DNA of 64,000 nucleotides from Mesorhizobium sp. GTDB taxonomy: Bacteria > Pseudomonadota > Alphaproteobacteria > Rhizobiales > Rhizobiaceae. A program made the translations under genes and the position numbers. Below, one piece after another: positions 4,426 to 27,103 of this stretch. The stretch is from contig SAQE01000002.1 of assembly GCA_004020545.1 (NCBI GenBank), forward strand, positions 124,001 to 188,000. The letters run 5' to 3'. Every line of letters starts with the position of its first letter. The first letter of the stretch is position 1. The notes below the pieces were generated by a model. It ran no database searches. It was not told the DNA's origin and saw only the letters and a program-made list of their open reading frames with translations.

Positions 4426-5631
<1,206 letters not shown>

Positions 5632-7289: not shown

Positions 7290-7314
7290 TGTGGCGGCTC
7301 CGGAGATTGAAAAA

Positions 7315-7329
7315 GTTCGTATTGCGAAC
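7315..7329. promoter_or_regulatory. Candidate PcaR (IclR) operator between pcaI and pcaR
   Basis: GTTCGTATTGCGAAC is an inverted repeat with 5-base arms and a 5-base centre, 25 bases upstream of the pcaI start and 68 bases from the pcaR start. IclR proteins commonly bind such pseudo-palindromes in the divergent gap. A possible -10 for pcaI (TATAGA on the minus strand, 7336-7341) lies just upstream, so the site would sit at the start of transcription. The regulator assignment is inferred. Confidence 0.55.
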
Positions 7330-7397
7330 ATAAGTTCTATATGGGATATTTCTAGCTTGACGCTCCGTGCAGAGTCAACGCCAGCGTGGGACCGCCC

Positions 7398-8168
7398 ATG
7401 GAAGACGTGCCAGTATCACGCGATCATGTCGGCTCGCTGGAGCGCGGCCTGGCGGTGATGGAGATCCTCGCTCGCCATCCGCTTGGTATGACGCTGACAG
7501 AGATGGCCGAGGAGGCAGGCCTGACGCGCGCCGGCGCACGCCGTTTCCTGCTGACGTTGGTAGCCACTGGCTATGCGACGCAATCCGGCCGGCTGTTTTC
7601 GCTATCGCCGCGTCTCTTGACCGTCGCCCGGACGTGGCTCGGCGGGGCATCGCTGTGGACGTTCGCGATGCCGATCATGCGCGAGGTGGCCGGGCGGTTC
7701 GATGAAGCCTGTAATGCGGCGGTGCTGTCGGGCGAGGACGTCGTCTATGTCGCGCGCATCCCCGGCCGCCGGATATTGAGCGTCGCGCTCGACATCGGCA
7801 CGAGGCTGCCTGCCTACTGCACCTCGATGGGTCGCGTGCTGCTCTCCGGCCTGGCGGTGGAGGAGTTGAAGGCTTTTCTCGGGGAAGCGACGATCGAGCG
7901 GCGGACGCCGAAGACGATCACCAGCCGTGCTGCGCTGGGCAAGGCCATCGACAAGGCGAGGGCGGATGGCTTCGCCGTCGTCGACGAGGAACTGGAGCTC
8001 GGCCTGCGCTCGATCGCCGTGCCGGTCAACGACCGCGCCGGCCGTACCGTCGCCGCTATCAACGTCTCGACGCAGTCGGCGCGCTTCTCGGTCGAGGCAA
8101 TGGAACGCGAGATCCTGCCGGTGCTGCTGCAGGCCAGGCAGCGTGTAGAGGCGTTTTTCTTCGTTTGA
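7398..8168 (+). CDS. pcaR: IclR family regulator of the beta-ketoadipate pathway
   Basis: The protein (256 residues) has the N-terminal winged helix of IclR regulators (LERGLAVMEILARHP, then LTEMAEEAGLTRAGARRFL) and the C-terminal effector domain (YCTSMGRVLLSGL, ELGLRSIAVPVND). IclR proteins of this type (PcaR, PobR, PcaU) sense pathway aromatics or beta-ketoadipate. Its divergence from pcaIJF is the rhizobial PcaR arrangement. The frame also has a GTG four codons upstream (7386). That it is PcaR and not PobR is inferred from the neighbours. Confidence 0.85.
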   Translation: MEDVPVSRDHVGSLERGLAVMEILARHPLGMTLTEMAEEAGLTRAGARRFLLTLVATGYATQSGRLFSLSPRLLTVARTWLGGASLWTFAMPIMREVAGRFDEACNAAVLSGEDVVYVARIPGRRILSVALDIGTRLPAYCTSMGRVLLSGLAVEELKAFLGEATIERRTPKTITSRAALGKAIDKARADGFAVVDEELELGLRSIAVPVNDRAGRTVAAINVSTQSARFSVEAMEREILPVLLQARQRVEAFFFV

Positions 8169-9544: not shown

Positions 9545-9575
9545 TGAACAGGATTATACAGGTTCACTGAACAGG
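9545..9575. promoter_or_regulatory. Candidate GntR operator upstream of the ADP-ribosylglycohydrolase cluster
   Basis: TGAACAGG occurs twice as a direct repeat (9545-9552 and 9568-9575), and between the copies lies GTTCA, giving the palindrome GTTCACTGAAC at 9562-9572 and a wider TGAAC/GTTCA pair at 9545 and 9562. The block ends 7 bases before the GntR start codon, which fits autoregulation and control of the whole downstream cluster. The pairing of this site with the adjacent regulator is inferred from position. Confidence 0.5.
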
Positions 9576-9582
9576 TATTGAT

Positions 9583-10308
9583 ATGGCCCGTCGCGCGACG
9601 CAGCTCACCCCCGGAACGGGCAAGCCCGAGCAGATCGCGACGGTTCTGGAGCACGAGATCCGCTCCGGCGTGCTCGGCTTCGGCGATCGCCTGCAGAGCG
9701 AGAGCGAGCTCGTCCAGCGCTTCTCAGTCAGCCGCAACACGGTTCGCAAAGGGCTGGAAGAGCTTTCCAGCCGCGGGCTCATCACCACCAAGGTCGGCAT
9801 AGGTTCCTTCGTTACTTTCGACGGCATGCCGGTCGATGACGCGATCGGCTGGTCGCGGGCGCTTGCCAATGCAGGCGCCAATGCCGAGACCCGGACGTTG
9901 AGGCTCGAGATCATCGAGGACGCCGAGCTCGCGGCAAGACTTGGTGTCGGGAACCCGTCCTTCATCGCCGTCGACCGTGTGCGCAGCAATGCCGATGACG
10001 GCCATGCCATTTCGATCGAGCGCAGCCGCTTGCCCTTGTCGCCGGAACTGGAAGACGTGCCGCTGCGCGGCCTTCGAGAAGGCTCGCTGCACCAGACGCT
10101 GCGCGGGGCAGGGCTGGTGCCCGACCATGGCGAGGAATGGGTCGACATCGAAATGCTGAGCGCCGCCGACGCAGCCATTCTCGATTGCGCTCCAGGCACG
10201 CCCTTCCTGCGCACGCGCCGTCTGACGCGTGCCGCCGACGGGCGCGCCGTCGAATTCGTCACCAGCCTGCTCAATCCGGCGCATTTCGCATTGCATCTGG
10301 AGTTCTGA
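9583..10308 (+). CDS. GntR family regulator with UTRA sensor domain
   Basis: Residues 12-75 form the winged helix of GntR proteins (LEHEIRSGVLGFGDRLQSE, then LVQRFSVSRNTVRKGLEEL and GLITTKVGIGSFV). The rest (about 85-241) is a UTRA ligand-binding domain of the HutC subfamily, with FIAVDRVRS and SIERSRLPLSPEL in the expected places. HutC-type regulators repress transport and catabolic genes until a small metabolite binds. The ADP-ribosylglycohydrolase gene follows after 2 bases and the same strand continues to 20616. The ligand is unknown; a sugar, cyclitol or amine derivative would fit the neighbours. Confidence 0.88.
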   Translation: MARRATQLTPGTGKPEQIATVLEHEIRSGVLGFGDRLQSESELVQRFSVSRNTVRKGLEELSSRGLITTKVGIGSFVTFDGMPVDDAIGWSRALANAGANAETRTLRLEIIEDAELAARLGVGNPSFIAVDRVRSNADDGHAISIERSRLPLSPELEDVPLRGLREGSLHQTLRGAGLVPDHGEEWVDIEMLSAADAAILDCAPGTPFLRTRRLTRAADGRAVEFVTSLLNPAHFALHLEF

Positions 10309-10310
10309 GC

Positions 10311-11348
10311 ATGGCGGACGCAGCCGGGATGATGGACCGGGCAATGGGTGCGCTGATCGGAGGAGCGCTTGGCGATGCGCTGGGCATGCCGACGCAGCTT
10401 TTATCCCCGACCCGCATCGCCGAGCTCTATGGGCATGTCGAGGATTTCGTCGCGCCGACTGCCGACCATCCGGTGTCGAAGGGGCTGCCGGCCGGCACTA
10501 TTACCGACGACACCGAACAGGCACTGCTGCTCGGGCGAATCCTGGTCAGCTCCGGCGAACGTTTCGACCACGCGCGCTGGGTCAACGCGCTGCTCGACTG
10601 GGAACGCGACGTGAAGGCGCGCGGCAGCTACGACTTGCTCGGACCATCGACAAAGCGCGCCATCGACGCGATCAATGAGGGCGTGCCGGCCGAAGAGGCG
10701 GGACGCAGCGGCGACACCAACGGCGCGGCGATGCGTATCGCGCCTGTCGGCATCATGATGCCGCTGGAGCCGCTCGACGCGCTGGTCGCCAAGGTGGCAG
10801 AGACCTGCCGGGCGACGCACAACACCTCGATCGCCATTGCCTCCGCCGCTGCCGTTGCGGCTGCTGTGAGCAGCGGCGTTGCCGGCAGCGACTGGCGCGC
10901 GGCTTCCGAGCGCGCCGTCGCGGCGGCGCGGTTGGGGGCGACGCTCGGCCATTGGGTCACCGGCGGCGATATTGCGGCCCGCATTGCCTGGGCGCAGGAC
11001 CTCGTGCGCGGCAAGTTGGAGCAGGATGCAATCAAGCTGATTGTCGACCTGATCGGCACGGGCGTCGCCAGTCAGGAATCGGTGCCGGCGGCATTCGCCG
11101 TACTGGAGGTTGCTGAAGGCGATGCGTGGCGGTCGGCCGTCATCAGCGCCAATCTCGGCGGCGACACCGACACGATCGGCGCCATTGCCGCCGGCATGGC
11201 CGGCGCCTGTGCCGGCCTATCGCGCCTGCCTCGGGAACGCATCGCAGAATTGAAGGGCATCGACGTCGCAGAGGTCCGCGCGCTGGTCAACGATCTGGTC
11301 GCGGCGCGGGTCGAGAGCGGCGGATCCGGGAAGGAGGCAGCCGCATGA
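10311..11348 (+). CDS. ADP-ribosylglycohydrolase family protein
   Basis: A 345-residue ARH/DraG-fold protein. The dinuclear-metal motifs are all present: GALIGGALGDALGMP near residue 10, TITDDTEQALLLGR near 63, SGDTNGAAMRIAPVG near 130 and GGDTDTIGAIAAG near 280. Characterised members cut N- or O-glycosidic bonds to ribose in ADP-ribosylated targets. It lies between a GntR regulator and a sugar kinase and just before an ABC importer, so a catabolic glycosidase role is more likely than removal of a protein modification. This is an inference. Its stop overlaps the kinase ATG by four bases (ATGA), so the two are coupled. Confidence 0.87.
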   Translation: MADAAGMMDRAMGALIGGALGDALGMPTQLLSPTRIAELYGHVEDFVAPTADHPVSKGLPAGTITDDTEQALLLGRILVSSGERFDHARWVNALLDWERDVKARGSYDLLGPSTKRAIDAINEGVPAEEAGRSGDTNGAAMRIAPVGIMMPLEPLDALVAKVAETCRATHNTSIAIASAAAVAAAVSSGVAGSDWRAASERAVAAARLGATLGHWVTGGDIAARIAWAQDLVRGKLEQDAIKLIVDLIGTGVASQESVPAAFAVLEVAEGDAWRSAVISANLGGDTDTIGAIAAGMAGACAGLSRLPRERIAELKGIDVAEVRALVNDLVAARVESGGSGKEAAA

Positions 11349-12319
11349 GCGGACGACTCGTCCACGTCGGCAGCGCGGTGGTGGACTATGTCTACCGCAT
11401 CGACGCCTTGCCGGCACCGGGCACCGAAAAGACCGCGACGAGCTATGCCCGGGTCGCCGGCGGCGGCTTCAACATGATGGTGGCGGCGAGCCGCACAGGA
11501 ATGAAGGTCGCGTTCGGCGGCCAGTTGGGAACAGGGCCGGACGGAGACTTCCTGCGCGCCGCTTTCGCCGCTGAAGGCATCGAGACGCTGACGCCGCCGT
11601 CACCGCTGATGGACAGCGGCAATTGCGTCGCCATGATCAGCGGCGACGCAGAGCGCACCTTCGTCTCCTGGCCGGGCGCCGAGAGCATGCTCACACCGGA
11701 CATGATGGCGCCCGTCCAAGCCCTGCCAGGGGATTGGGTTTTCACCTCGGGCTACACGTTGAGCTATCCCGGCAGCCGCGATGCGCTCACCAACTGGATC
11801 GAGGCGTTGCCAGCGGACGTTCCCTTCGTGTTCGATCCGACGCCGGTGATCGCGGAGATTCCCCGCCCGATCCTGGACAGGGTGCTTGCGCGCACGACCT
11901 GGCTGAGCTGCAACACGGACGAGGCCGCCGAAATCGCCGGCGCGGGCGATGCGCAGACTGTCGCGATCCGGTTGCTCGCCGAGCACTGCCCGAAGGCCGA
12001 TGGCGTCGTGATCCGCGCCGGCGCGCATGGCTGCCTGGTGCGGCTGGCCGACGGCGGAACGCGCGCCATCCCCGGCTTCGCGGTCCACGCCGTGGATACC
12101 AATGGCGCCGGCGATACGCATATCGGCGCCTTCGTCAGCGCATTGTCGCGTGACCTGTCGCCTTGCGAAGCGGCCCGCTACGCCAATGCGGCAGCGGCCC
12201 TTTCCGTCACCCGCCATGGCGGGTCTTCGGCACCGACGGACACAGAGATCCAGGAATTCCTGAGCCATCGCGATCAAGCAACGATCGCGCATGACTGGGA
12301 GGAAGCGACTGCAACTTAA
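11345..12319 (+). CDS. PfkB/ribokinase family sugar or nucleoside kinase
   Basis: The protein (324 residues) is a ribokinase-fold kinase. The N-terminal GSAVVDYVYRIDALPAPG and GGGFNMMVAASR give the sugar-binding region. DTNGAGD at residues 251-257 is the PfkB second signature, with Asp257 the expected catalytic base. It would phosphorylate a sugar or ribosyl product in the cytoplasm. It is coupled to the ARH gene, which suggests that it phosphorylates the sugar that enzyme releases. The exact substrate cannot be read from the sequence. Confidence 0.87.
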   Translation: MSGRLVHVGSAVVDYVYRIDALPAPGTEKTATSYARVAGGGFNMMVAASRTGMKVAFGGQLGTGPDGDFLRAAFAAEGIETLTPPSPLMDSGNCVAMISGDAERTFVSWPGAESMLTPDMMAPVQALPGDWVFTSGYTLSYPGSRDALTNWIEALPADVPFVFDPTPVIAEIPRPILDRVLARTTWLSCNTDEAAEIAGAGDAQTVAIRLLAEHCPKADGVVIRAGAHGCLVRLADGGTRAIPGFAVHAVDTNGAGDTHIGAFVSALSRDLSPCEAARYANAAAALSVTRHGGSSAPTDTEIQEFLSHRDQATIAHDWEEATAT

Positions 12320-12359
12320 CAAGCCCATCAACCGGGCCAACAATGAGAGGAAAGAAAAC

Positions 12360-13427
12360 ATGCGCATGCCCAGACTGACCGCTTTTCTGGCGGCGACCGC
12401 CGTCTTCGTTTCAGCACTCACACTCTCCTCCGCCCAGGCCGCCGAAGAAGTGCATGTGCTCAACTGGAAGGGCTACGGCGCCGACGAGCCGTGGGCTGTC
12501 GCCAACTTCGAGAAGGCGACCGGCTTCAAGGTGGTCAACGACTTCTTCAATTCCGAACAGGAGATGCTGACGAAGCTCAGGACCAATCCGGGCCTCTATG
12601 ACGTCGTCATGATCAACGCCGCCTTCAACGATCAGGCGATGGCCGGCAAGCTGATCCAGCCGATAGACACGTCGAAGCTGTCCAACTATGCCGATATCGC
12701 CAAGGACAAGGCCGGCTCGCCGATGCTCAACCATGACGGCAAGGTCTATGGCGTGCCGTGGGTCTGGGGCCTGACCGCTTTGGCAATCAACGAAAAGTCC
12801 TTCGACAAGCCGCCGACGAGCATCGCCGAGATGTGGGACCCGGCGCATAAGGGCCGCGTCATCATCCGCGACGACGCCGTCGAAGCCGTGCAGTTCGGTG
12901 CCATCGCTTCCGGCCAGAACATCAACGACATCAAGGACATGGATGCGGTCAAGACGAAGCTCACCTCGCTGATGCCGCAGATCAAGACCTTCTGGAGCTC
13001 GGAGAACGACTGGAACCAGATGGTCGCCTCCAACCAGATCGACATCGGCACCTATTGGAGCGGTTCGGCCGACCGCGCCAAGACGCATTTCAAGCTGCCG
13101 GTCTCGCTGGTCATTCCGCAGGAAGGCGCCGTCGCCTGGCTCGACGCTTTTTCAATTCCCGCCGGCTCCAAGAACGTCGCCGGCGCCGAGGCCTTCATCA
13201 ACTACATGATCGACCCGAAATTCTATGTCGAATGGGTCACCAAGGTCGGCGCGCCGGTCTCGGCCAACACCAAGGCGGTCGAGGCTCTGCCCGAGGATGC
13301 CTTCAACCGCAAGGTCATGGGCAGCCCGGAGGTCGCCAAGCGCATCCAGTTCCAGGCGCCGGTCACCGACGAGCAGCGCGAAAAATACCTGGCGCTCTGG
13401 CAGGAGCTGAAGGTCAACGTCAAGTAG
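12360..13427 (+). CDS. ABC transporter substrate-binding protein, polyamine type (PotD-like)
   Basis: A 355-residue periplasmic binding protein. Residues 1-27 are a signal peptide ending in SSAQA. The mature start EEVHVLNWKGYGADEPW and the later WVWGLTALAINEKSF are typical of the PotD/PotF family, which binds spermidine, putrescine and other cationic or amino compounds. A ribosome site (GAGAGGAAAG) precedes the ATG; the longer frame upstream lacks one. With the next three genes it forms a complete importer in the same operon as the kinase and ARH. Known members bind many ligands besides polyamines, so the ligand is open. Confidence 0.9.
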   Translation: MRMPRLTAFLAATAVFVSALTLSSAQAAEEVHVLNWKGYGADEPWAVANFEKATGFKVVNDFFNSEQEMLTKLRTNPGLYDVVMINAAFNDQAMAGKLIQPIDTSKLSNYADIAKDKAGSPMLNHDGKVYGVPWVWGLTALAINEKSFDKPPTSIAEMWDPAHKGRVIIRDDAVEAVQFGAIASGQNINDIKDMDAVKTKLTSLMPQIKTFWSSENDWNQMVASNQIDIGTYWSGSADRAKTHFKLPVSLVIPQEGAVAWLDAFSIPAGSKNVAGAEAFINYMIDPKFYVEWVTKVGAPVSANTKAVEALPEDAFNRKVMGSPEVAKRIQFQAPVTDEQREKYLALWQELKVNVK

Positions 13428-13455
13428 TTGGCGTCTTTCGGGGAGGAGAGGCATC

Positions 13456-14325
13456 ATGGTTGACCAGCTCGCGACCGGTTCGCGCCGCGGACTGAGGCCT
13501 GCCCTGCCGCTTCTCCTTCCTGCCTATCTCTGGCTGACGGTGGCGATCTTCCTGCCGCTGTCGGCCATGATGTTCTTCTCTTTCATGACCGACCTGCCGC
13601 TGGCCGGGAAGGAATGGGCGTTCACGCTCGGCAACTACGCCGCCTTCTTCTCGCAAAGCCTCTACTCGACATTGCTGTTTGCCTCCTTGCGGCTCGGGCT
13701 CGAGGTGACGCTGTGGTGTGTCGTCATCGGTTATCCGGCCGCCTATGTGTTGGCCAAGGTGCTGAAGGGGCGCAGCCGCGAGGCGATCTTCCTGCTCGTC
13801 ATCCTGCCGTTCTGGTCGAACGGGCTGGTGCGCATCTTCTCCTGGGCGATGGTGCTGCGCGAAGGCGGCATCCTCGACACGGCGCTCAACGCCGTGCTGC
13901 CGTTCAAGATCAACATCGATCTTATGTATTCCTATCCGGCCGTCATCATCGGCCTGGTGCATTCCTATGTGCCCTACATGGTGCTGACCTGCTACCTGAC
14001 GCTGCAGGCTATCGACGACTCGCTGATCGAGGCCGGGCGCTCGCTCGGCGCCTCGCGACTGCAAGTGCTCAAGCGGGTGATCATTCCGCTGTCGATGCCA
14101 GGCCTGATTGCGGGAGCGGCGCTGATCTTCGTGCCGGTCGTCGGCTCCTTCATGGAGCCGCGCATCCTCGGCGGACGCACCGGCACCTTCTACGGGACAA
14201 TCATCGAGGACCAGTTCGTCGCCGTCTTCAACTGGCCGCTGGGCGCTGCGCTTTCCTTCATCCTGCTCGCGGTGGTGCTGATCATCCTGGCACTGGCGGC
14301 GCCAGTCCTGAGGAGAGCCAGCTGA
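13456..14325 (+). CDS. ABC transporter permease, PotB-like
   Basis: A 289-residue inner-membrane protein with about six membrane segments and the EAA loop near residues 190-215 (DDSLIEAGRSLGASRLQVLK), which docks on the ATPase. Its N-terminal part (PLLLPAYLWLTVAIFLPL) matches the first permease of spermidine/putrescine-type systems. It follows the binding protein after 28 bases with a good Shine-Dalgarno (GGGGAGGAG), and the next permease overlaps it (TGATG). Confidence 0.9.
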   Translation: MVDQLATGSRRGLRPALPLLLPAYLWLTVAIFLPLSAMMFFSFMTDLPLAGKEWAFTLGNYAAFFSQSLYSTLLFASLRLGLEVTLWCVVIGYPAAYVLAKVLKGRSREAIFLLVILPFWSNGLVRIFSWAMVLREGGILDTALNAVLPFKINIDLMYSYPAVIIGLVHSYVPYMVLTCYLTLQAIDDSLIEAGRSLGASRLQVLKRVIIPLSMPGLIAGAALIFVPVVGSFMEPRILGGRTGTFYGTIIEDQFVAVFNWPLGAALSFILLAVVLIILALAAPVLRRAS

Positions 14326-15113
14326 TGGCAATGACGCGCATCCTCGAATGGCTCGGCCGCTTCTACATCTTGATGCTGCTCGCCTTCCTCTATCTGCCGA
14401 TCATCATCATGGCGCTGATGTCGTTCAACACCTCGCCCTTCTACCAGCTGCCGTTCGAGTGGACGACGGACTGGTACGCCTCGCTCTGGCAAAACGACCA
14501 ATTGATCGCGGCGACCTGGAACAGCATCGAGATCGCCGTCATCACGACCATCATCTCGACGGTGCTGGGCTCGATGGCCTCGCTGGCGCTCTACCGCTAC
14601 GAGTTCCGCGGCAAGAAATTCCTGCAGGCGTTGCTCTTCCCGCCGATCGCCATTCCGTGGCTGATCACCGGCACGGCGATGCTGATCTTCTTCTTCGGCA
14701 TCGGTATCGGACGTGGGCTCCTCGCCATCCTGCTCGGCCATGTCGCGCTGGCGCTGCCCTACGTGATCGTCGTCGTGTCCGCGCGTCTGCAGACCTTCGC
14801 GCCGGAGTTGGAGGAGGCGGCGCGCTCGCTCGGCGCCAACCAGTGGCAGGTAACCCAGCGCGTAACCTTGCCGTGGATCATGCCGGGCGTCATCGCCGGC
14901 GGGCTGTTTGCTTTCGCGGTGTCGTTCGACCAGTTCGTGGTCTCCTACTTCCTGTCGACGCCCGGCCAGACGACGCTGCCGGTCGAAATCTACGCCGCGA
15001 TCCGCAAGGGTTTCACGCCCGAGATCAATGCGGTGTCGACGATCATCATCGTCGTGTCGATGGCGCTGATGCTGCTCACGGCGCGCTTCTTCAAATTCGG
15101 CGGAGAGAAATAA
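14325..15113 (+). CDS. ABC transporter permease, PotC-like
   Basis: The second inner-membrane subunit (262 residues). It has six predicted segments, the early PIIIMALMSFN segment typical of PotC, and the EAA loop ELEEAARSLGANQWQVTQRV near residue 160. Its ATG overlaps the previous stop and its stop overlaps the ATPase start (TAATG), so the three genes are tightly coupled. The substrate is that of the binding protein at 12360 and is not known. Confidence 0.9.
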   Translation: MAMTRILEWLGRFYILMLLAFLYLPIIIMALMSFNTSPFYQLPFEWTTDWYASLWQNDQLIAATWNSIEIAVITTIISTVLGSMASLALYRYEFRGKKFLQALLFPPIAIPWLITGTAMLIFFFGIGIGRGLLAILLGHVALALPYVIVVVSARLQTFAPELEEAARSLGANQWQVTQRVTLPWIMPGVIAGGLFAFAVSFDQFVVSYFLSTPGQTTLPVEIYAAIRKGFTPEINAVSTIIIVVSMALMLLTARFFKFGGEK

Positions 15114-16180
15114 TGGCAGGCGTCCAGGTAGCAAACGTCTCCCGCAGTTTTGGCGCGCATAGGGCGCTGGATAACGTTTCGATCGATTTTGCGGACGGCG
15201 GCTTCTATGCGTTGCTCGGGCCTTCAGGCAGCGGCAAGACCACGCTGTTGCGCCAGATCGCCGGCTTCGACTTTCCGGACGCCGGGCGCATTGCCATCGG
15301 CGGCGAGGGCGTCGAGCGTGTGCCGGTCGAGAAGCGGCGCATCGGCATGGTGTTCCAGAACTATGCGCTGTTCCCCAATATGAGCGTCGCCGACAATATC
15401 GCTTTCGGACTGTCGGTGCGCGGCGAGCCGAAGGCGACGATCGCCACGGAAGTGCAGCGCGCGCTCGACCTCGTGCAGCTCGGCAAGCTCGGCGCCCGCC
15501 GGCCGCACCAGCTTTCCGGCGGCCAGCGCCAGCGCGTGGCGCTGGCGCGGGCCATCGTCACCAAGCCGCGCGTGCTGCTGCTCGACGAGCCGCTCGGCGC
15601 GCTCGACAAGGCGCTGCGCGTCGACATGCAAATTGAGCTCAAGCGCATCCAGCGCGAGATCGGCATCACCACCATCTTCGTCACCCACGACCAGGAAGAG
15701 GCGCTGACGATGAGCGACCGCATCGGCATCCTGCGCGACGGCAGGCTGGTGCAGGAAGGACCGCCGGAGGAGATCTACGATAGGCCGCAAAGCGAGTTCG
15801 CCGCGACCTTCCTAGGCGACGCCAACATCTTTCGCGGCCATGTGACTGGCAATGGCATCCGGCTGCCCGACGGCACGACGATTGCCGCCGCCTCCGGGTC
15901 TTCGCTGACGGCCGGTGCCAAGGCGAACTGCGCCGTGAGGCCGGAGCGCATCCAGATTTCGACCGGCACGGCAAGACCCGACTCAGGCAACGCCAACACG
16001 CTCAAGGGGCAGGTGTCCAAACGTATCTTCGCCGGCAACAACAGCACCTATTTCGTCGAGTGTGATTGGCAGACGCTGAAGGTGATCGTGCAGAACACCG
16101 GCGCCGAGCGCCTTGCCGAGGGCGAACCCGTGATGCTCAGTTGGTCGCCGGAGAGCACGGTGCTGATCGCAGCGAGCTGA
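15113..16180 (+). CDS. ABC transporter ATP-binding protein, PotA-like
   Basis: The energising subunit (355 residues) with Walker A GPSGSGKTT at 36-44, Q-loop VFQNYALFPNMSV, signature LSGGQRQRVALARA, Walker B VLLLDEPLGALD and switch His in TIFVTHDQEEAL. Residues from about 240 on form the TOBE domain usual in PotA/MalK-type ATPases, with FLGDANIFRG at its start. It completes the importer begun at 12360. Confidence 0.93.
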   Translation: MAGVQVANVSRSFGAHRALDNVSIDFADGGFYALLGPSGSGKTTLLRQIAGFDFPDAGRIAIGGEGVERVPVEKRRIGMVFQNYALFPNMSVADNIAFGLSVRGEPKATIATEVQRALDLVQLGKLGARRPHQLSGGQRQRVALARAIVTKPRVLLLDEPLGALDKALRVDMQIELKRIQREIGITTIFVTHDQEEALTMSDRIGILRDGRLVQEGPPEEIYDRPQSEFAATFLGDANIFRGHVTGNGIRLPDGTTIAAASGSSLTAGAKANCAVRPERIQISTGTARPDSGNANTLKGQVSKRIFAGNNSTYFVECDWQTLKVIVQNTGAERLAEGEPVMLSWSPESTVLIAAS

Positions 16181-16266
16181 CGATTGGTGCTGATGGGAAA
16201 TGATGGCGCCGGCCTTGGCTGACCGGTAGACCATGGCGTTATATCCAGGTCTCGACGGAGGAATGG

Positions 16267-17355
16267 ATGGCGAGCATGGGCTTCGAGCCGGACGTGAAGG
16301 TCCGGGTCAAGGACTACAGGATCGGCTGCGTCGGCGCCGGCATGATCATGGCCGAATGCCATCTCGCCGCCTATCGCGAAGCCGGCTTTCCGGTGGTGGC
16401 GATCGCTTCACGCACAAAGGCGAATGCCGAGAAGGTCGCCGCCCGCTGGGGCATCGAGACCGTTCATGATACGCCGGAGCAATTGATCGAGGACGATCGC
16501 GTCGAGATCGTCGACCTTGCATTCCCGCCTGATCAGCAACCGGCGCTGATCCGCCACGCCCTGAAACAGCCGCACGTCAAGGCGATCCTGGCGCAGAAGC
16601 CGCTGGCGCTCTCGATCGCGGAAGCGGTGAAGCTGCGCGACGACGCGGCCGCCGCCGGCAAGATCCTCTCGGTCAACCAGAATATGCGCTACGACCAGTC
16701 GATGCGTGTGCTGAAGCAGATCATCGACGGCGGCGCGCTGGGCGAGATCGTCTTCGCAGAGATCGACATGCATGCGATCCCGCACTGGCAGACTTTTCTC
16801 GCCGACTACGATCGGCTGACGCTCGCCAATATGAGCGTGCACCACCTCGATGCGCTGCGCTTCCTGTTCGGCGATCCGGATGAGATCACCACGCTGACGC
16901 GTAAGGACCCACGCACCAAGTTCCAGCATTCCGACGGCATCACGGTGTCGACGCTCCGCTTTCCCTCCGGCGTATTTGCCGTCTCGCTGGAGGATGTCTG
17001 GTCCGGCCCGCGCCAGGAAGGATACGAGGACGACCAGCACATCGCCTGGCGCGTCGACGGCACCAAGGGCGTCGCCAAGGGCACGATCGGTTGGCCGAAG
17101 GGTGTTGCCTCGACACTAACCTATGCCTCGACCGAGACGACAGGCGGGGTATGGGTCACGCCAAGCTGGGACACGATGTGGTTCCCGCATGCCTTCATCG
17201 GCGTGATGGAACAGCTCCAATACGCGCTGAAGACCGGCACGCCGCCGGCGCTGTCAGTCGCCGATAACGTCAAGACGATGGCGCTGGTCGAGGCCGGCTA
17301 CCGGTCGATGGCCGAAGGCCGCACCGTCAAGCTGTCCGAAATCCGCATCGACTGA
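16267..17355 (+). CDS. Gfo/Idh/MocA family oxidoreductase
   Basis: A 362-residue dehydrogenase with a Rossmann motif GCVGAGMIMAECH near residues 20-32 and the family substrate domain after about 130. The usual EKP motif reads QKPLALS near 119; the catalytic lysine is kept and the glutamate is replaced. The family includes inositol dehydrogenase and MocA of rhizopine catabolism. The next three genes match MocC, MocD and MocE types, so a MocA-like oxidation of a cyclitol or sugar derivative is likely. It sits 86 bases after the importer on the same strand. The longer GTG or ATG alternatives near the start are not resolved. Confidence 0.83.
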   Translation: MASMGFEPDVKVRVKDYRIGCVGAGMIMAECHLAAYREAGFPVVAIASRTKANAEKVAARWGIETVHDTPEQLIEDDRVEIVDLAFPPDQQPALIRHALKQPHVKAILAQKPLALSIAEAVKLRDDAAAAGKILSVNQNMRYDQSMRVLKQIIDGGALGEIVFAEIDMHAIPHWQTFLADYDRLTLANMSVHHLDALRFLFGDPDEITTLTRKDPRTKFQHSDGITVSTLRFPSGVFAVSLEDVWSGPRQEGYEDDQHIAWRVDGTKGVAKGTIGWPKGVASTLTYASTETTGGVWVTPSWDTMWFPHAFIGVMEQLQYALKTGTPPALSVADNVKTMALVEAGYRSMAEGRTVKLSEIRID

Positions 17356-17406
17356 GGCAGCCGAAAGACACGACGACAGAATCGCTTACCGGGAGGACTT
17401 CACCTC

Positions 17407-18321
17407 ATGATGCAGGCAGGTATCTTCACAGGCTATTTCCCCTATGAGCTTGAAGAGGTCGCCAGGCGCATCCGCGCGCTGGGTTTCAACACGGTGCAGC
17501 TCGACCTGCATTTCAAGGATATCGACCTCGCGGCCAGTCAGATCACCAGGGACAAGGCAAGGAAGGTGCGCGACACGTTCCGCGACCACAATCTGCCGGT
17601 CTGCTGCGTGTCCGGCTACACCAACATCATCCATCCGGACAAAGCCGAGCGCGAAAGACGGCTCGCCTATCTGAAGGAAATCATCCGCAACGCGCGTGAA
17701 TTCGGCAGCGCTTACGTGATCTCGGAGACCGGCACCTACAACACCGAGTCCGACTGGGTGCATCACCCGAAGAACAAGACCGAGGAAGGGTTCGAGGAGT
17801 GCCGCAAGGTGATCTCCGATCTTGCCCAGACAGCCTATGACCATGGCGCGGTGTTTTTGCTCGAAACCTATGTCAACAATGTCGTCGGTTCGGTCGAGGA
17901 GACGGTCAGAATGTTCGCGCAGGTCGACCATCCCGGCCTCGGGCTATTGATGGACCCGACCAACTACTTCGAGGCGCACAATATCGACCGCATGGACCAG
18001 GTGCTGAACCAGGTGTTCGACACGCTGACCGACAAGATCAAAATCGCGCATGCCAAGGACGTGAAGCGCTCGGGCAGCGACAAGACCGAGAAGCATGCCG
18101 ACATCGGTGACGCGGACGCACATGAGGGGCTGACGTTCCGGGGCGTTGGCGAGATCGAATTGCCGGCGCCGGGCCTCGGTGCCCTCAACTATGATCTCTA
18201 TCTCAAGCGGCTCAGCGAAAAGCACCCGAACATCCCGGTCATCATCGAGCATCTCTCAGAGGACGACGTGCCGCGCGCCAAAAAATTCCTCGACGGGAAA
18301 TTCCGCGCCAACGGACTTTGA
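17407..18321 (+). CDS. Sugar phosphate isomerase/epimerase, MocC/IolE-like TIM barrel
   Basis: A 304-residue xylose-isomerase-like TIM barrel. The likely metal ligands are in ETGTYNTESDW (near 116), LLETYVNNV (near 159), LLMDPTNYF (near 182), AHAKDVK (near 217) and IIEHLSEDD (near 280). The family includes inosose dehydratase IolE and the rhizopine protein MocC. Together with the MocA-like dehydrogenase before it, this suggests isomerisation or dehydration of an oxidised ring compound. It starts with ATGATG after a GGGAGG ribosome site. The exact reaction is unknown. Confidence 0.82.
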   Translation: MMQAGIFTGYFPYELEEVARRIRALGFNTVQLDLHFKDIDLAASQITRDKARKVRDTFRDHNLPVCCVSGYTNIIHPDKAERERRLAYLKEIIRNAREFGSAYVISETGTYNTESDWVHHPKNKTEEGFEECRKVISDLAQTAYDHGAVFLLETYVNNVVGSVEETVRMFAQVDHPGLGLLMDPTNYFEAHNIDRMDQVLNQVFDTLTDKIKIAHAKDVKRSGSDKTEKHADIGDADAHEGLTFRGVGEIELPAPGLGALNYDLYLKRLSEKHPNIPVIIEHLSEDDVPRAKKFLDGKFRANGL

Positions 18322-18338
18322 CGTCCGGGGAGGTGATG

Positions 18339-19436
18339 ATGACCAGGACCGCCAGCGCGAAGCGTGACTACAGCCTTGTCGGCGAAAGCACTCGGCTCGC
18401 GATCGAGACCGGGCTTGCCTCGGCTGAGTGGTACCACACGGACGTGCCGCGCAAGGTGATGAAGGAGCTGATGCAGCGCTCGGACGGGCCGGCGATCCGC
18501 GACACCATCATCTGGATTGCCGCGATCCTGGGTTCGGCTGGCGGCATCGTCTGGTTCTGGGGCACGTGGTGGGTCGTGCCGTTCCTGTTCGTCTATGGCG
18601 TGCTCTATGGCTCGTCGAGCGACGCGCGCTGGCACGAATGCGGCCACGGCACCGCCTTCCGCACGCGCTGGATGAACGACGCCGTCTATCACATCGCCTC
18701 GTTCATGCTGATGCGCAATCCGGTGCAGTGGCGCTGGAGCCATGCCCGCCATCACACCGACACCATCATCGTCGGCCGCGACGCCGAGATCGCCGTGATG
18801 CGCCCGCCGGACCTCTTGAAGGCGGCGCTGGCCTTCACCGGCATCCTCGACTTCCGCTATTCGCTGCCGACGCTCGTGCGCCAGGCCTTCGGCAAATTGT
18901 CGGATGACGAGAAGAGCTACATTCCGGAGATGGAGCAGCATAAGGCGGTGGTTGCGGCGCGCTGGCATATGGTCGTGTATGCCGCGACGATCGCTGCCGC
19001 GATCGCGCTTAGGTCATGGATACCGCTGGTGCTGATCGGCCTGCCACGGCTCTACGGCACCTGGCACATGGTGATGACCGGCCTGCTGCAGCATATCGGG
19101 CTGGCCGACAACGTCACCGACCACCGGCTCAACTCGCGCACCGTCTATATGAACCCGGTCAGCCGGTTCATCTACTGGAACATGAACTACCATGTCGAGC
19201 ATCACATGTTCCCGATGGTGCCCTATCACGCGCTGCCGAAGCTCCACGAACTGATCAAGCACGATTTGCCGGAACCGAACCCGTCGATGTGGCACGCCTA
19301 TCGCGAGGTCTGGCCGGTGCTGCTCAGGCAACTCAAATATGAGGACTACTACCTCAAGCGCGAATTGCCGCCGACGGCCAGGCCCTATCGCGGCGAGTTC
19401 CACGAGGTCGATATGACGGTGGCCGCCGCCAAATAG
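18339..19436 (+). CDS. mocD: MocD-like membrane di-iron oxygenase (fatty acid desaturase family)
   Basis: The protein (365 residues) has the three histidine boxes of membrane di-iron enzymes: HECGH at 99-103, HARHH at 135-139 and HVEHH at 285-289, and membrane segments around 57-92 and 225-255. Rhizobial MocD belongs to this family and acts with MocE in turning O-methyl-scyllo-inosamine into scyllo-inosamine. The Rieske gene directly after fits that pairing. The start is chosen at 18339 because GGGGAGG ends five bases before it; an ATG three bases earlier and a TTG at 18318 are also open. It may oxidise a substrate other than a rhizopine. Confidence 0.82.
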   Translation: MTRTASAKRDYSLVGESTRLAIETGLASAEWYHTDVPRKVMKELMQRSDGPAIRDTIIWIAAILGSAGGIVWFWGTWWVVPFLFVYGVLYGSSSDARWHECGHGTAFRTRWMNDAVYHIASFMLMRNPVQWRWSHARHHTDTIIVGRDAEIAVMRPPDLLKAALAFTGILDFRYSLPTLVRQAFGKLSDDEKSYIPEMEQHKAVVAARWHMVVYAATIAAAIALRSWIPLVLIGLPRLYGTWHMVMTGLLQHIGLADNVTDHRLNSRTVYMNPVSRFIYWNMNYHVEHHMFPMVPYHALPKLHELIKHDLPEPNPSMWHAYREVWPVLLRQLKYEDYYLKRELPPTARPYRGEFHEVDMTVAAAK

Positions 19437-19464
19437 GCGGCGCGTTGCAGCCCGGAGAAGGACG

Positions 19465-19779
19465 ATGGCGGAGTGGGTTGAAGCATGCGCGGTGGACGAC
19501 GTGGATGAGGAGGACGTGATCCGCTTCGATCATGCCGGCCGCACCTTCGCGATCTACCGCTCGCCGGACGACGAGTTCTTCGCCACCGACGGCTTCTGCA
19601 CGCATGAGAAGGCGCATCTTGCCGACGGGCTGGTGATGGACGACATCATCGAATGTCCCAAGCACAATGGCCGCTTCAACTACAAGACCGGCCAGGCCAA
19701 GGGTGCGCCCGTCTGCGTCAACCTCAAGACCTATCCGGTGAAGGTCGAGGCCGGCAAGGTGATGATCGATATCGGCTGA
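19465..19779 (+). CDS. mocE: MocE-like Rieske-type [2Fe-2S] ferredoxin
   Basis: This 104-residue protein is a stand-alone Rieske ferredoxin. The cluster ligands are Cys45 and His47 in CTHEKAHLADG and Cys64 and His67 in CPKHNGRF. It would pass electrons to the MocD-like oxygenase encoded 28 bases upstream. In rhizopine catabolism a third protein, MocF, is the ferredoxin reductase; no such gene is seen in this window, so the reductase must come from elsewhere. A GGAGAAGG ribosome site precedes the ATG. Confidence 0.9.
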   Translation: MAEWVEACAVDDVDEEDVIRFDHAGRTFAIYRSPDDEFFATDGFCTHEKAHLADGLVMDDIIECPKHNGRFNYKTGQAKGAPVCVNLKTYPVKVEAGKVMIDIG

Positions 19780-19812
19780 TAGCCGCCAGACAGACAAAAC
19801 GGGGATATACCG

Positions 19813-20616
19813 ATGAGCCGAAAGAGACCGACCGTTGCCGATCTGCGCGCCATGAAGGGCAAGCGGCAATTGACCATGCTGCGCGTGCTGACGCTCGACG
19901 AGGCCGAAGCCGCCGAGCGCGCCGGCATCGACATCGTCTCGGTGCCGCCCGAACTGGTGCTCAATCCACAGTACCGCGACGCCGCCCCCAGCCTCTTTAC
20001 GATGCCGGGCGACAATTTCTACGAGATCGGCACGGCGGACGATTTCCTGCGCTGGGCTTTCCGCCTCTACAAGGCAGGCGCCGACGCGGTCTATTGCAGC
20101 GCCGGCTACGCCACGATCAAGCGCATGGCCGACGACGCGATCCCCGTCATCGGCCATGTCGGCCTCATTCCTTCCCGCGCGACCTGGACCGGCGGCTTCA
20201 AGGCCGTCGGCAAGACCGCCGATACCGCCATGCAGGTGTTCGAGGCGGTGAAGCAACTGGAAGCAGCCGGCGCGATCGGCGCAGAGATCGAGGTGGTGCC
20301 GGTGGAGGTGGCGAAGGCGATCTCCGAGCGCACCTCGCTGATCATGCTGTCGATGGGAGCAGGCACAGGCTGCGATGCCCAATACCTATTCGCCGAGGAC
20401 ATTCTCGGCACCAATCGCGGTCACATGCCGCGTCACTCGAAGGTCTACCGCAACTTCGCCGCCGAATACGATCGGCTGCAGCAGGAACGCGTCGCGGCGT
20501 TTTCCGAATATGTAGCCGACGTCAACAGCGGCGCCTATCCGGAAGACAGGCATATCGTGCACATGGATCCCGGCGAGCTTACCCTCTTCATGAAGAAGGT
20601 GGACGGAAAGGCTTGA
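19813..20616 (+). CDS. PanB-like protein (ketopantoate hydroxymethyltransferase family) with lost metal site
   Basis: A 267-residue TIM barrel in the PanB/PEP-mutase superfamily. Clear PanB marks are HVGLIPS near residue 117, the EVVPVEVAKAISE stretch that aligns with the PanB catalytic-base region, and SMGAGTGCDAQYLFAEDILG. The PanB metal-binding places are changed: the GDSLGM loop reads SVPPELV, the ADLPF aspartate reads TMPGD and the lysine/glutamate strand reads VYCSAG. It is therefore unlikely to make ketopantoate. It is the last gene of the moc-like cluster, 33 bases after mocE. An aldolase or lyase role on a cluster product is possible but not shown. Confidence 0.72.
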   Translation: MSRKRPTVADLRAMKGKRQLTMLRVLTLDEAEAAERAGIDIVSVPPELVLNPQYRDAAPSLFTMPGDNFYEIGTADDFLRWAFRLYKAGADAVYCSAGYATIKRMADDAIPVIGHVGLIPSRATWTGGFKAVGKTADTAMQVFEAVKQLEAAGAIGAEIEVVPVEVAKAISERTSLIMLSMGAGTGCDAQYLFAEDILGTNRGHMPRHSKVYRNFAAEYDRLQQERVAAFSEYVADVNSGAYPEDRHIVHMDPGELTLFMKKVDGKA

Positions 20617-20641: not shown

Positions 20642-22123
20642 CTAGGCTTGCCAACTCCCATCGGCGAGCGCGGCATGGAGCGCGTCGGCGTTGGGGCCGA
20701 GCGGCCGGTCTTCCTTGAGCGTCGGCACATGCGTGCGCACAGCCGCGTGGATCACGCCGGTGGCCGGCGCCAGCGTCAGCCCTTCGCGCAGGTCGACCGC
20801 CTGCGCCGCCGCCATCAGTTCGAGGGCGATCAGGCGCCGCCACAGCACGATCATCTCGGCGCATTTGGCGACGGCAAGCGGCGTCTGGGTGGCGTGGTCC
20901 TCCACGCCCTCGGATACGGGCAGGAAGTCGAGCATCACCGGATTGGCCTTGTGGCGGATCGCGGCGAGGATCGCCGTCACTGTTTTCTGCAGCGGCACGA
21001 AGCCGGCGGAGGCCCCGCCGACCGGCGACAGATATTTCGGCAGGCCGTGGCGGGTCGAGCCGGTGAGCTGGATGAAGCGGGCAGCGGATGCCGCCGCGCA
21101 TTGGGCGATCGCGAGGCCGAGCGTCTCGAATGCCAGCGCCAGCGATGCGGTGTGGAAATTGCCGGTCGACAAAACCTGCGCGTCATCAACGAGCACCAAG
21201 GGGTTGTCGGCAGCGGCGTTGAGCTCGATCTCGACCGCGAGCCGCGCATGGTCGATAGCCTGGACCAGCGCGCCATGGATCGAGGGCATGCAGCGGATCG
21301 ACAGCGGATCCTGAATGGTGGTCGGCGCGGGTGCGTCGTCGCGGGCGAGCAGGTCGCGCAGCGCCTTTGCCGCGACCTGCTGGCAGGCGCCTGGCCGTGC
21401 CTGGTGCAGACGAGGATCGAGGATGGTGCGGTTGGCGCCCAGCGCCTCCATGGTCAGCGCGCCGGCCTGCTGCTGCTGTTCGAGCGCCGACAAAGCGTCG
21501 ACGAGAGCCAGAGCGCCGGCGCCAGTGGAGACCGCGGAAGCGTTGATCAGCGAGAGGCCGTCCTTCGGCGCCAGCCTGACCGGAGCAAGACGCGCCATCA
21601 TCAGCGCCTTGGCCGAAGGCATACGCCGGCTTTGGTAGTCGGCATCGCCTTCGCCGATCAGCGTATGGGCAATCGCCGTCATCATCACCAGGTCGCCGGC
21701 GCCGATCGAGCCGAGCGAGGGCATCACCGGATGGACGCCGGCGTTGAGCAGGTCGACGAGCGCGGTGAAGACATGCGGCGAGATACCGGAGCCACCCGCA
21801 GAAAGCATGGCGATGCGGGCGAACATCGCTGCGCGGACGAGCTGTGCAGGCAAGGCATCGCCCACCGCTGCGGCGCGCCCGTCAAGAAGTCGGCGCTGGA
21901 AGGCGCCGGCATCGCCTTCGACTGTCGTGCCGAGATTGGCGCCCAGGCCGGTGTTCAGCCCGTAGATCTGCTGGCCGCCGGCGGCGCCCTCATCGAGCAC
22001 TTTGCGCGCCTTGCCCAGTCTTTCGATGACCGCAGGCGTGACCTCGACTTTTCCTGTATTGCGCGCGACGGCGGCCACATCCTCGATGCTGACGCCGGCG
22101 CCGGTGAGAACGAGCGGGGTCAT
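20642..22123 (-). CDS. Aromatic amino acid/histidine ammonia-lyase family protein lacking the MIO serine
   Basis: A 493-residue member of the histidase/phenylalanine ammonia-lyase family. The conserved YGLNTGLG is at 54-61 and the RIQDPLSIRC-type stretch TIQDPLSIRCMPSIHGA near residue 275. The catalytic MIO group normally forms from Ala-Ser-Gly within GSxGASGDL. Here residues 138-145 read GSIGAGDL, one residue shorter and without the serine, so the normal cofactor cannot form. It may be a lyase of another type, an aminomutase-like protein or a non-catalytic homologue. Its ATG overlaps the stop of the cyclodeaminase-like gene, so the two are co-transcribed. Confidence 0.82.
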   Translation of the reverse strand: MTPLVLTGAGVSIEDVAAVARNTGKVEVTPAVIERLGKARKVLDEGAAGGQQIYGLNTGLGANLGTTVEGDAGAFQRRLLDGRAAAVGDALPAQLVRAAMFARIAMLSAGGSGISPHVFTALVDLLNAGVHPVMPSLGSIGAGDLVMMTAIAHTLIGEGDADYQSRRMPSAKALMMARLAPVRLAPKDGLSLINASAVSTGAGALALVDALSALEQQQQAGALTMEALGANRTILDPRLHQARPGACQQVAAKALRDLLARDDAPAPTTIQDPLSIRCMPSIHGALVQAIDHARLAVEIELNAAADNPLVLVDDAQVLSTGNFHTASLALAFETLGLAIAQCAAASAARFIQLTGSTRHGLPKYLSPVGGASAGFVPLQKTVTAILAAIRHKANPVMLDFLPVSEGVEDHATQTPLAVAKCAEMIVLWRRLIALELMAAAQAVDLREGLTLAPATGVIHAAVRTHVPTLKEDRPLGPNADALHAALADGSWQA

Positions 22124-23121
22124 GCGAAGCGCAGCCTCTGGCCGATGCCTTGTTCCGCGGCCTTGGACAGCATCGCCTTGCCGAGCGCGATATCGGAAAG
22201 CGAGAGGCCGCGATGCCAGAACAGGATCGTCTCGCCGTCGCTTTGCCGGCCCGCTTTGAGGCCGGCCGCGATCTGGCCGAGCTCGGCATGCAGCGTCGCC
22301 TCGCTCAGCCGCCCCGTCTCGACATGAGCGCGCAGCGAGCCGAACTTGCCGCTCTTGCACTGGCCCCAGTCGTCGACGACGATCTTTTGCATGATCTCGG
22401 TGAGCGAAAGCTCCACGGCACTCATGGTGCCGTAGGGCACGACCAGCGCGCCCCGCTTGATCCATTCGGTCTTGAGCAATGGCTGCGGTTCCGGCAGCCG
22501 CGAGGCCTCGACGACGATGTCCGCGCCTTCGACGCAGCTTTTCCAGTCGGCCACGGCCATAACCGGCTTGCCGAGGTCGGCGGCGAGCTTCGAGGCGAAA
22601 GCGTCTCGGCTTTCCGGCCGGCGCGAATGGACGCGGATCTCGTCGAAGTCGAAGAGGTGATCGAGCAGGCGCACATTCCAGTAGGCGGTGCCGCGCGCGC
22701 CGATATGGCCGAGCACCTTTGATGACTTCTTCGCCAGGTGCCTGGCGCCGATGGCGGTGACCGCGCCGGTGCGCATGTCTGTGATGACGGTGGCGTCGAG
22801 GATGGCGCGCGGCGTGCCGGTGCGCGGGTCGAAGAGGTTGAGGATGCCGAATTCGGACGGCAGGCCATGCAGGTAGTTGTCGACATAGTCGCCGACGATC
22901 TTCACGCCGGCCGCATCGAGCGGCGCCACATAGCCGCGCAGCACGTTGAAGTGGCCGTGGAAGGACGGATCCGGCTCGAGATGGACGCGCGGCTCGATAA
23001 CGGTCTGGCCGTTGCCCTGGCCGACGAGCCCGGCTTCGACGGCGCCGATGATCTCGGCATCGCTCATGGCAAGGGCTTCAATGTCGAGAGCGTTGAGATA
23101 GTCGATATAGATGGGCTTCAT
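22120..23121 (-). CDS. Ornithine cyclodeaminase/mu-crystallin family protein
   Basis: A 333-residue NAD(P)-dependent protein. The family marks are a substrate region around residues 40-80 (VIEPRVHLEPD, GVKIVGDYVDN), TGTPRAILDATVITDMRTGA near 100, and a Rossmann motif near 137 (VLGHIGARGTAY). Family members catalyse ornithine cyclisation, ketimine reduction or amino acid dehydrogenation. It is the first gene of a two-gene unit with the ammonia-lyase-like protein, so both probably act on one amino acid-like compound. It diverges from the MFS transporter at 23212 across a 90-base gap. The substrate is unknown. Confidence 0.83.
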   Translation of the reverse strand: MKPIYIDYLNALDIEALAMSDAEIIGAVEAGLVGQGNGQTVIEPRVHLEPDPSFHGHFNVLRGYVAPLDAAGVKIVGDYVDNYLHGLPSEFGILNLFDPRTGTPRAILDATVITDMRTGAVTAIGARHLAKKSSKVLGHIGARGTAYWNVRLLDHLFDFDEIRVHSRRPESRDAFASKLAADLGKPVMAVADWKSCVEGADIVVEASRLPEPQPLLKTEWIKRGALVVPYGTMSAVELSLTEIMQKIVVDDWGQCKSGKFGSLRAHVETGRLSEATLHAELGQIAAGLKAGRQSDGETILFWHRGLSLSDIALGKAMLSKAAEQGIGQRLRFA

Positions 23122-25945: not shown

Positions 25946-26002
25946 GGGTACCCGGCCGATCGTGCCGACCGGCCGGCAACAATCGAAACCAGAGGATGTG
26001 AC

Positions 26003-27028: not shown

Positions 27029-27050
27029 GGCCGCTGACAAAAGCATCCGC

Positions 27051-27085
27051 GAGGTGGCCGGACGTTCCGGCCACCTCTTTCTCTT
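27051..27085 (+). terminator. Hairpin after binding-protein gene, likely partial terminator
   Basis: A perfect 12-base stem (27051-27062 with 27066-27077) closes a CGT loop and is followed by TTTCTCTT. It lies between the binding-protein gene and the fused permease. It probably ends part of transcription and protects the upstream message, leaving less transcript for the membrane subunits. Confidence 0.78.
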
Positions 27086-27103
27086 GATTGGCAGCAGCAG
27101 CCG

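Follow-up and report, generated by a model that had tools for sequence, protein, structure and literature searches.

A Moc-like run of twelve genes in Mesorhizobium sp., probably two neighbouring operons with a LacI-operon box at their joint

Twelve genes, all on the forward strand, occupy positions 9583–20616 of a 64,000-nucleotide stretch of Mesorhizobium sp. DNA (the window; its own genome is called G000). According to their reading frames and to Pfam and NCBIfam, they encode, in order, a GntR-UTRA regulator, an ADP-ribosylglycohydrolase (ARH), a PfkB kinase, a periplasmic binding protein (SBP), PotB, PotC, PotA, a Gfo/Idh dehydrogenase, a TIM barrel protein, an oxygenase of the fatty-acid-desaturase type, a MocE ferredoxin and a PanB-like protein. 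A preliminary description of this DNA gave the coordinates, the single strand and the gene families correctly, counted eleven genes where there are twelve, and regarded the whole as a super-cluster forming one complete pathway. The run does contain two catabolic sets placed head to tail, one for oxidation (MocADE-like) and one with ARH, kinase and PotDBCA. Intergenic gaps range from -4 to 40 bp among the first seven genes (unit 1, 9583–16180) and from 17 to 51 bp among the last five (unit 2, 16267–20616), while 86 bp (16181–16266) separate PotA from Gfo. The single pathway is not supported, given the separate occurrence of the two sets, the LacI-type box at the joint and the equal proximity of ARH to both types of core. 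The run would rather comprise two neighbouring catabolic operons under separate control, a reading that we place at a probability of about 0.7; each set occurs without the other beside it. Two transcription units are preferred mainly because the joint carries the box of a LacI operon.

Unit 1 opens with the GntR-UTRA regulator (9583–10308; Pfam GntR and UTRA), which is YegW/GgaR-like (27% identity to Escherichia coli YegW, E 7e-14). Directly 5′ of its gene, on the same strand, lies a candidate operator, GAACAGGATTATACAGGTTC (9546–9565), an imperfect palindrome with another GAACAGG half-site after it. The ARH-family protein (10311–11348; PF03747, 1.4e-61) is YegU-like (34% over 311 aa, E 4e-55), and the ribokinase-like PfkB kinase (11345–12319; PF00294, under the NCBIfam ribokinase cut-off) is YegV-like (31% over 306 aa, E 4e-35). 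A homologous trio of regulator, ARH and PfkB proteins is thus gathered in one cluster in E. coli (yegTUV-yegW, the last also called ggaR). The two clusters differ in their transporters, an MFS protein (YegT) in E. coli and a PotDBCA-like importer in the window, where sequence comparison found no transporter of the run matching YegT, and also in the regulator gene, which lies on the opposite strand in E. coli and on the same strand here. In E. coli yegTUV forms one transcript, and the function of its products is not clear, as far as the accessible part of that report goes (PMC10819704).

The importer consists of the PotD-like SBP (12360–13427), the PotB-like permease (13456–14325), both recognised by Pfam and NCBIfam, the PotC-like permease (14325–15113), identified by its reading frame and by homologues in relatives, and the PotA-like ATPase (15113–16180), for which the Pfam and NCBIfam matches were to a longer frame and the start was taken at 15113. 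The composition is that of the spermidine/putrescine importer PotABCD, but SBP, PotB and PotA fall under the NCBIfam Pot equivalog cut-offs, PotA passing that of the broader subfamily TIGR01187. In PotD numbering, and of the positions that contact the amine there, the window SBP keeps W34, Y37, D168, E171, W229, W255 and D257, and has Ala in place of Y85 and Y293 and Lys in place of T35. Among nine SBPs compared, W34, Y37, D168, W229, W255 and D257 are kept in all nine and E171 in seven; position 293 is Ala in all nine, and position 85 is Ala in seven and Ile or Val in two. With most amine positions kept and two Tyr changed to Ala, the pattern suggests a ligand that bears an amine and exceeds a polyamine in size. 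Unit 1 would then be a GntR-controlled operon for uptake and glycoside opening, that is, a YegUVW-like trio given an ABC importer: a cationic ligand with an amine group would enter through the importer, an N- or O-glycosidic bond would be split by the ARH-family hydrolase, and the kinase would trap the freed sugar as its phosphate.

Unit 2 comprises a Gfo/Idh dehydrogenase of the MocA type (16267–17355; PF01408), a xylose-isomerase-like TIM barrel (17407–18321; AP_endonuc_2, PF01261, 2e-29), a MocD-like membrane di-iron oxygenase of the fatty-acid-desaturase type (18339–19436; PF00487, three His boxes), a MocE-family Rieske ferredoxin (19465–19779), which scores 189.6 bits against a cut-off of 136.15 with TIGR02377, and the PanB-like protein (19813–20616). 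The MocA, MocD and MocE labels proposed previously are right as to family, whereas that of MocC is weak and has only the AP_endonuc_2 fold behind it. For the TIM barrel, no NCBIfam model exceeded its cut-off, the best PDB sequence match had E 0.011, the AlphaFold model (mean pLDDT 60.8) was too weak to use, and comparison with the TIM barrel in the Msi119 position of pRL11 revealed no significant similarity. Several motifs, presumably those expected of working enzymes, are intact along the run: TITDD and GGDTDT in ARH, GAGD in PfkB, the three His boxes of the oxygenase and the Rieske CxH...CxxH. The PanB models remain under their cut-offs, and of five residues of the PanB active site that were compared, the window protein has lost four. 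In PanB numbering, D45, D84, K112 and E114 are replaced and E181 is kept in all nine family members compared; because of these replacements, synthesis of ketopantoate by this protein is unlikely.

The genes of unit 2 recall rhizopine catabolism, in which mocDEF has a role in demethylation. Gfo/Idh, TIM barrel, MocD-like oxygenase and MocE ferredoxin correspond by family to mocABC/mocDEF of Sinorhizobium and Rhizobium, whereas the run lacks MocB, MocF and MocR and has a PanB-like protein and the box of a LacI operon. In print, moc has four transcription units (PMC10107442, in the part available). The MocD/MocE precedent and the LacI and CUT2 partners described below suggest that unit 2 would O-demethylate or hydroxylate a cyclitol or sugar. 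The oxygenase and MocE would attack a methylated or otherwise substituted cyclitol or sugar, our best guess being O-demethylation of an O-methyl cyclitol, and the Gfo/Idh and TIM-barrel enzymes would oxidise the product and then isomerise or cleave it.

Two locus types have to be distinguished before the joint is considered. Type A, that of the window, is the core of unit 2 without LacI, CUT1, CUT2 and DUF4432; type B has importers of its own (CUT2, or CUT1 plus CUT2). Of 87 loci classified, 27 are without these importers (PotA is on the stretch in 22 of them) and 60 have at least one. The 80 named loci, the best of 382 in a ranking by similarity to a TIM alignment that the window heads, over-represent type A, and their flanks stop at 10 kb; some named loci and genome stretches are from the same genome (L106 and G349, or L159 and L026, for example), and the 87 rows hold one identical pair. 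In a scan of 61 genomes of the genus, 53 TIM places were found in 51 genomes, 32 of these places being type B-like and 16 having the window's order (type A); these labels rest on the distance to the box described next, ten of the 16 were seen directly, and one further place at the type A distance (G327) was moved out because its order is LacI-Gfo-TIM-CUT2.

At the joint, the sequence is conserved from position 16190 onwards across nine aligned type A gaps, and 16190–16222 match the LacI-bSBP1 intergenic region of type B loci (blastn, E down to 3e-5). This region begins with a 17-base box, CTGATGGGAAATGATGG (16190–16206, forward strand), formed by two TGATGG elements 10 bp apart and situated 77 bp 5′ of the Gfo start. 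Nearly identical 15–17 bases occur in the LacI-Gfo gap of Labrys and in the LacI-oxygenase gap of a paralogous operon. The 17-base box is present with at most two mismatches in all 27 type A loci, 20–153 bp 5′ of the called Gfo start, once per stretch and nowhere else on it, and a 15-base form stands beside LacI in 55 of the 60 type B loci, the remaining five being stretches without LacI. The 15-base core has 103 sites at up to one mismatch in the 61 genomes (one for the reversed control). It lies upstream of 49 of the 53 TIM places, 17 times at 1.2–1.5 kb and 32 times at 7.1–7.4 kb, and within 200 bp of the paralogue LacI in 37 of the 53 genomes that have that gene. The places without it are those of G007, G335, G334 and G014; a locus on the same contig as that of G007 (L087) has a box with two mismatches, and G014 has one on another contig, beside LacI and bSBP1 (L232). 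The window's genome has two sites at up to one mismatch, the joint and the paralogue, and nine more at two mismatches. Downstream of the box, CTTGGC-N19-TTATAT (16214–16244, forward strand), read from the alignments, is kept in the nine type A gaps and recognisable in the type B LacI-bSBP1 gaps; it is promoter-like when set against the rhizobial promoter consensus. Unit 2 would therefore seem to have a promoter region of its own, with a box common to it and the paralogous operon. The spacer between PotA and Gfo or LacI is also a hot spot (L012, L015, L019, L064 and relatives), its contents differing by species: large and small AcnX subunits, an NMT1-type ABC set with a FAD-binding protein, or LacI plus CUT1.

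The two units also occur apart. Unit 1 is complete, with no unit 2 on the stretch, on plasmids pB1-1-8 (Mesorhizobium sp. B1-1-8) and pTH2a (Rhizobium sp. TH2). Other stretches have unit 1 and no unit 2: with GntR in L056 and L060, with GntR not recognised in L058 and L059, without GntR on plasmid p1 of Paracoccus albus, and on two more Mesorhizobium stretches, L227 and L229, the latter 54 kb from a type B core. Among six ARH loci from other genera, two (L057, L061) have no recognised Pot genes. When 297 genomes were sampled evenly across the order, 13 carried ARH (E ≤ 1e-50) and 46 carried the oxygenase. The candidate operator of unit 1 shows 0–3 substitutions in ten aligned type A upstream regions, 3–4 mismatches 5′ of gntR on pTH2a and pB1-1-8 and six in L056, and was not recognisable 5′ of gntR in L060; an 18-base form has one site at up to two mismatches in the 7-Mb genome and two more at three (reversed control, one). 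Conversely, in three Labrys loci (L155, L165, L166), whose stretches lack unit 1, the core follows a divergent LacI gene in the order Gfo-TIM-CUT2 importer-DUF4432-oxygenase-PanB-like. Locus L067 has the Labrys-type order plus MocE, L071, whose stretch begins inside CUT1, has CUT1, CUT2 and DUF4432, and no ARH match was listed for the genomes of either (G110 and G268, respectively). Many Mesorhizobium type B loci have a CUT1 importer with two UgpC-like ATPases 5′ of Gfo. A single pathway implied that the gene set would be kept together in related genomes; in most of the relatives examined the twelve genes lie apart, and this expectation largely fails.

The history of unit 2 was approached with quick trees that have few well-supported branches. 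In both the Gfo and the TIM tree, the 27 type A rows stand on one side of a branch and the other 60 on the opposite side (SH-aLRT 98 and 99), and because they form one clade in these phylogenies the type A Gfo-TIM pair is taken to have arisen once. For the other genes more label changes are needed: 9 for PotA, 11 for PotC, 10 for the oxygenase, 12 for the PanB-like protein, 16 for the Rieske protein and 15 for the aromatic amino acid lyase of the 3′ flank (HAL), of which well-supported branches force 1, 1, 3, 3, 1 and 8, respectively. By these trees, at least the oxygenase, the PanB-like protein and HAL are genes exchanged, or inherited independently, across types A and B. Together with the Labrys order, the trees suggest loss rather than gain of the importers in type A, apparently once, and with them of LacI and DUF4432. 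Orthologues of bSBP1 and cSBP were not found in the window's genome, where the best matches reach 30% and 50%.

The core appears to be still at work. In a sample of 13 loci chosen from the 27 of type A and 13 chosen from the 60 of type B, the type A median dN/dS is 0.115 for Gfo, 0.067 for TIM, 0.131 for the oxygenase, 0.071 for MocE (10 loci) and 0.066 for the PanB-like protein (11 loci), a range of 0.066–0.131 against 0.057–0.121 in type B; over all genes of the run the medians are 0.066–0.174 (10–13 type A loci). These ratios indicate a core under purifying selection, and decay of the core is rejected by them and by the open frames. Such selection on the genes therefore argues against chance, and a chance juxtaposition in one assembly is rejected too, as the same order recurs in many species. 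Single loci do show signs of decay: Gfo is split in L108, and the PanB-like protein measures only 163 aa in L094 and 204 aa in L108 and was not called in L090 and L098. Of 84 loci in which an oxygenase was called, 13 (from type A, type B and Labrys) are without MocE, two of these stretches ending before PanB; absence of the Rieske gene was checked by tblastn because the ORF caller misses some small genes. The gene is missing between the oxygenase and the PanB-like gene in L087, L100, L102, L107, L108, L110, L115, L126, L155, L165 and L166, L110 retaining a remnant of 31 aa. Near an intact unit 1, L228 (G331) has the box, a Gfo-like fragment and the PanB-like gene, with neither TIM nor oxygenase called, that is, a decayed core.

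The paralogous operon of the window's genome (contig C144, L031) is divided between the strands: LacI, the genes of a CUT2 importer and a Gfo/Idh-like gene share one of them, and oxygenase-MocE-ferredoxin reductase-PanB-like occupies the opposite one. The oxygenases of this operon and of the window are 71% identical, and the reductase corresponds to MocF (L031:12282–13499). No ferredoxin reductase was found in the run or in any of the 87 core stretches, and for this reason supply from the paralogue fits. All 17 genomes with the box 1.2–1.5 kb 5′ of TIM have the paralogue LacI. Unit 2 is thus most likely regulated in trans by the paralogous locus, from which substrate and ferredoxin reductase may also come. 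The order LacI|oxygenase-MocE-reductase-PanB recurs on pRL11 of Rhizobium johnstonii, and S. meliloti SM_b20817-20820 are named LacI, mocD, mocE and mocF in the available part of PMC11387232.

The regulator of the paralogue leads to FixV. In the portion of PMC3538637 at hand, FixV of M. loti (Msi360) is an activator of nifA2, its next closest homologues lie beside mocDEF, and its inducer is left as an open question, possibly an inositol derivative; a limited search of the later literature found no further mention of FixV. The paralogue LacI in the window's genome is likewise divergent from MocD-E-F. The recognition helix VS[VAP]ATVDRVLN is common to the paralogue LacI, the two full-length type B/C LacI proteins read and most of the FixV-like proteins read; the first three have the longer stretch VS[VAP]ATVDRVLNNR, and the FixV-like letters, VSVATVDRVLN, are the same as in the paralogue LacI. 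The genome also holds a LacI homologue (59%) followed by a TIM-barrel gene (L206), an order like fixV-msi119. In three fixV-nifA-like stretches (L209, L210, L223), which differ in showing only TGATA/TATCA half-sites, the 15-base box is absent at up to three mismatches. A direct link of the box to the nifA2 promoter is consequently not supported, and the connection with nifA2 is by regulator family only, because the box was not found near nifA-like genes. At these loci a LacI gene (60%) precedes a sigma-54 activator-like frame of 571–580 aa, as in fixV-nifA2 (for L209 this identity has a Pfam match), and a TGATA-N6-TATCA element lies just 3′ of the called LacI frame.

Several observations weigh against two separately controlled operons, or against the box as their link. 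A scan for sigma-70 promoters with the E. coli consensus found none in 16050–16350, a region that includes the gap, the spacing of CTTGGC-N19-TTATAT is long, and no terminator-like site was detected in that region either, so that read-through from unit 1 into unit 2 is possible across the 86 bp. The type B bases to the left of the box are not kept in type A, and half of the operator may for this reason be missing at the joint. At up to one mismatch, 16 of the 53 genomes with the paralogue LacI have no box beside it, and once the 49 and the 37 are subtracted from the 103 sites, 17 remain that fall outside these places or have no assignment. The paralogue and type B LacI groups are about 28–35% identical overall, and the mixing of types A and B in the PotA, PotC and Rieske trees is not forced by supported branches.

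The strongest alternative, unlikely in our judgement, is a single pathway of all twelve genes, in which the GntR-controlled PotDBCA, ARH and PfkB became the feeder of unit 2 once the latter had lost its importers and LacI. ARH would split an imported amine glycoside, the sugar would be phosphorylated and the methylated amino-cyclitol aglycone oxidised by unit 2. Pot as feeder stays a live rival because most type A stretches have no other importer next to the core, and the type A core is under purifying selection; in addition, the genes share one strand with short gaps, ARH lies within 10 kb at 13 of the 16 type A places from the genus scan, the type A Gfo-TIM is a distinct clade, and the SBP, with its amine positions kept and two Tyr changed to Ala, fits a larger cationic ligand. 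Against it, L100 is a type A locus without unit 1 nearby, whose Gfo, TIM and oxygenase are intact and where no importer was recognised; its genes before the core match the thiolase/CoA-transferase/IclR flank of the window in position and length. Type A also occurs without unit 1 in L106 (G349, with other ABC-like genes) and G320, and in L108 (G008), but Gfo is split in the last. ARH lies within 30 kb of the core in 14 of 17 type A and 25 of 32 type B places (Fisher p = 1.0; 13 of 16 once G327 is removed from type A), and no association was found between ARH and importer loss. The LacI-type box persists at the joint, and unit 1 is complete by itself on the two plasmid stretches.

It is less likely still that unit 1 handles ADP-ribose-type or ADP-glucose-type compounds instead of small amine glycosides. 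The ARH family, with both acidic motifs intact, would suit such a role, and in E. coli ADP-glucose is a reported effector of the yegTUV regulator (PMC10819704, in its accessible part); the SBP is nevertheless PotD-like and retains most of the amine cage. Catabolism of rhizopine proper (3-O-methyl-scyllo-inosamine) by unit 2 is very improbable: MocE exceeds its model cut-off and published accounts describe operons of the paralogous type as mocDEF accompanied by a FixV-like LacI (available parts of PMC3538637 and PMC11387232), yet the regulator of the run is GntR-UTRA and not MocR, its SBP is PotD-like and not MocB-type by NCBIfam, and the rhizopine SBP model NF052284 had no match at E ≤ 1e-60 in the window's genome, seven of 37 candidates having been scored. 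In the draw from the order, all ten loci over the cut-off of NF052284 are without an oxygenase or MocE match on the stretch, and because of this the model was rejected as a guide to moc clusters here.

On the 3′ side, the run of two putative operons is flanked, on the reverse strand, by genes of the aromatic amino acid lyase family (HAL, HutH-like; 20642–22123) and the ornithine cyclodeaminase/mu-crystallin family (22120–23121), found 3′ of type A and of many type B loci. The upstream flank (4426–8168) has a thiolase gene and two CoA-transferase genes on the reverse strand and an IclR regulator on the forward strand, a set that we take to be beta-ketoadipate-like. Further downstream, among CUT2-type importer genes at 24959–31775, a 707-aa ORF on the forward strand (27104–29227) fuses a BPD_transp_2 ABC permease domain with a strictosidine-synthase/SMP-30-like domain.

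No account of this system was found among the papers listed in literature searches on ARH with PfkB and ABC genes, on pinitol demethylase, on hydrocarbon oxygenases and mocD, or on Mesorhizobium with desaturase, Rieske, inositol and LacI. Its parts are ordinary and their arrangement is unusual, and the regulon clue makes an open question testable. A tempting single-pathway reading is corrected, and separate, testable targets result. The first is a hydrolase and a kinase resembling YegUV, for which the importer hints at a cationic glycoside; the second is a Moc-like oxygenase set that shares its promoter box with another operon, the regulator of which is, by position and sequence, a homologue of FixV. 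A bolder proposal, with the odds clearly against it for now, is a two-operon regulon across the genus (TGATRG-N4-TGATRG), in which a FixV-family LacI would control two parallel oxygenase systems (MocD/MocE/PanB-like) that act on a methylated cyclitol, for example pinitol or ononitol. If this were true, the core in the window would be the copy that gave up its importer and lives on supply in trans, and these oxygenases would have, as a substrate or intermediate, the metabolite through which FixV turns on nifA2 in nodules. The substrate of these oxygenases would be a natural candidate for what FixV senses.

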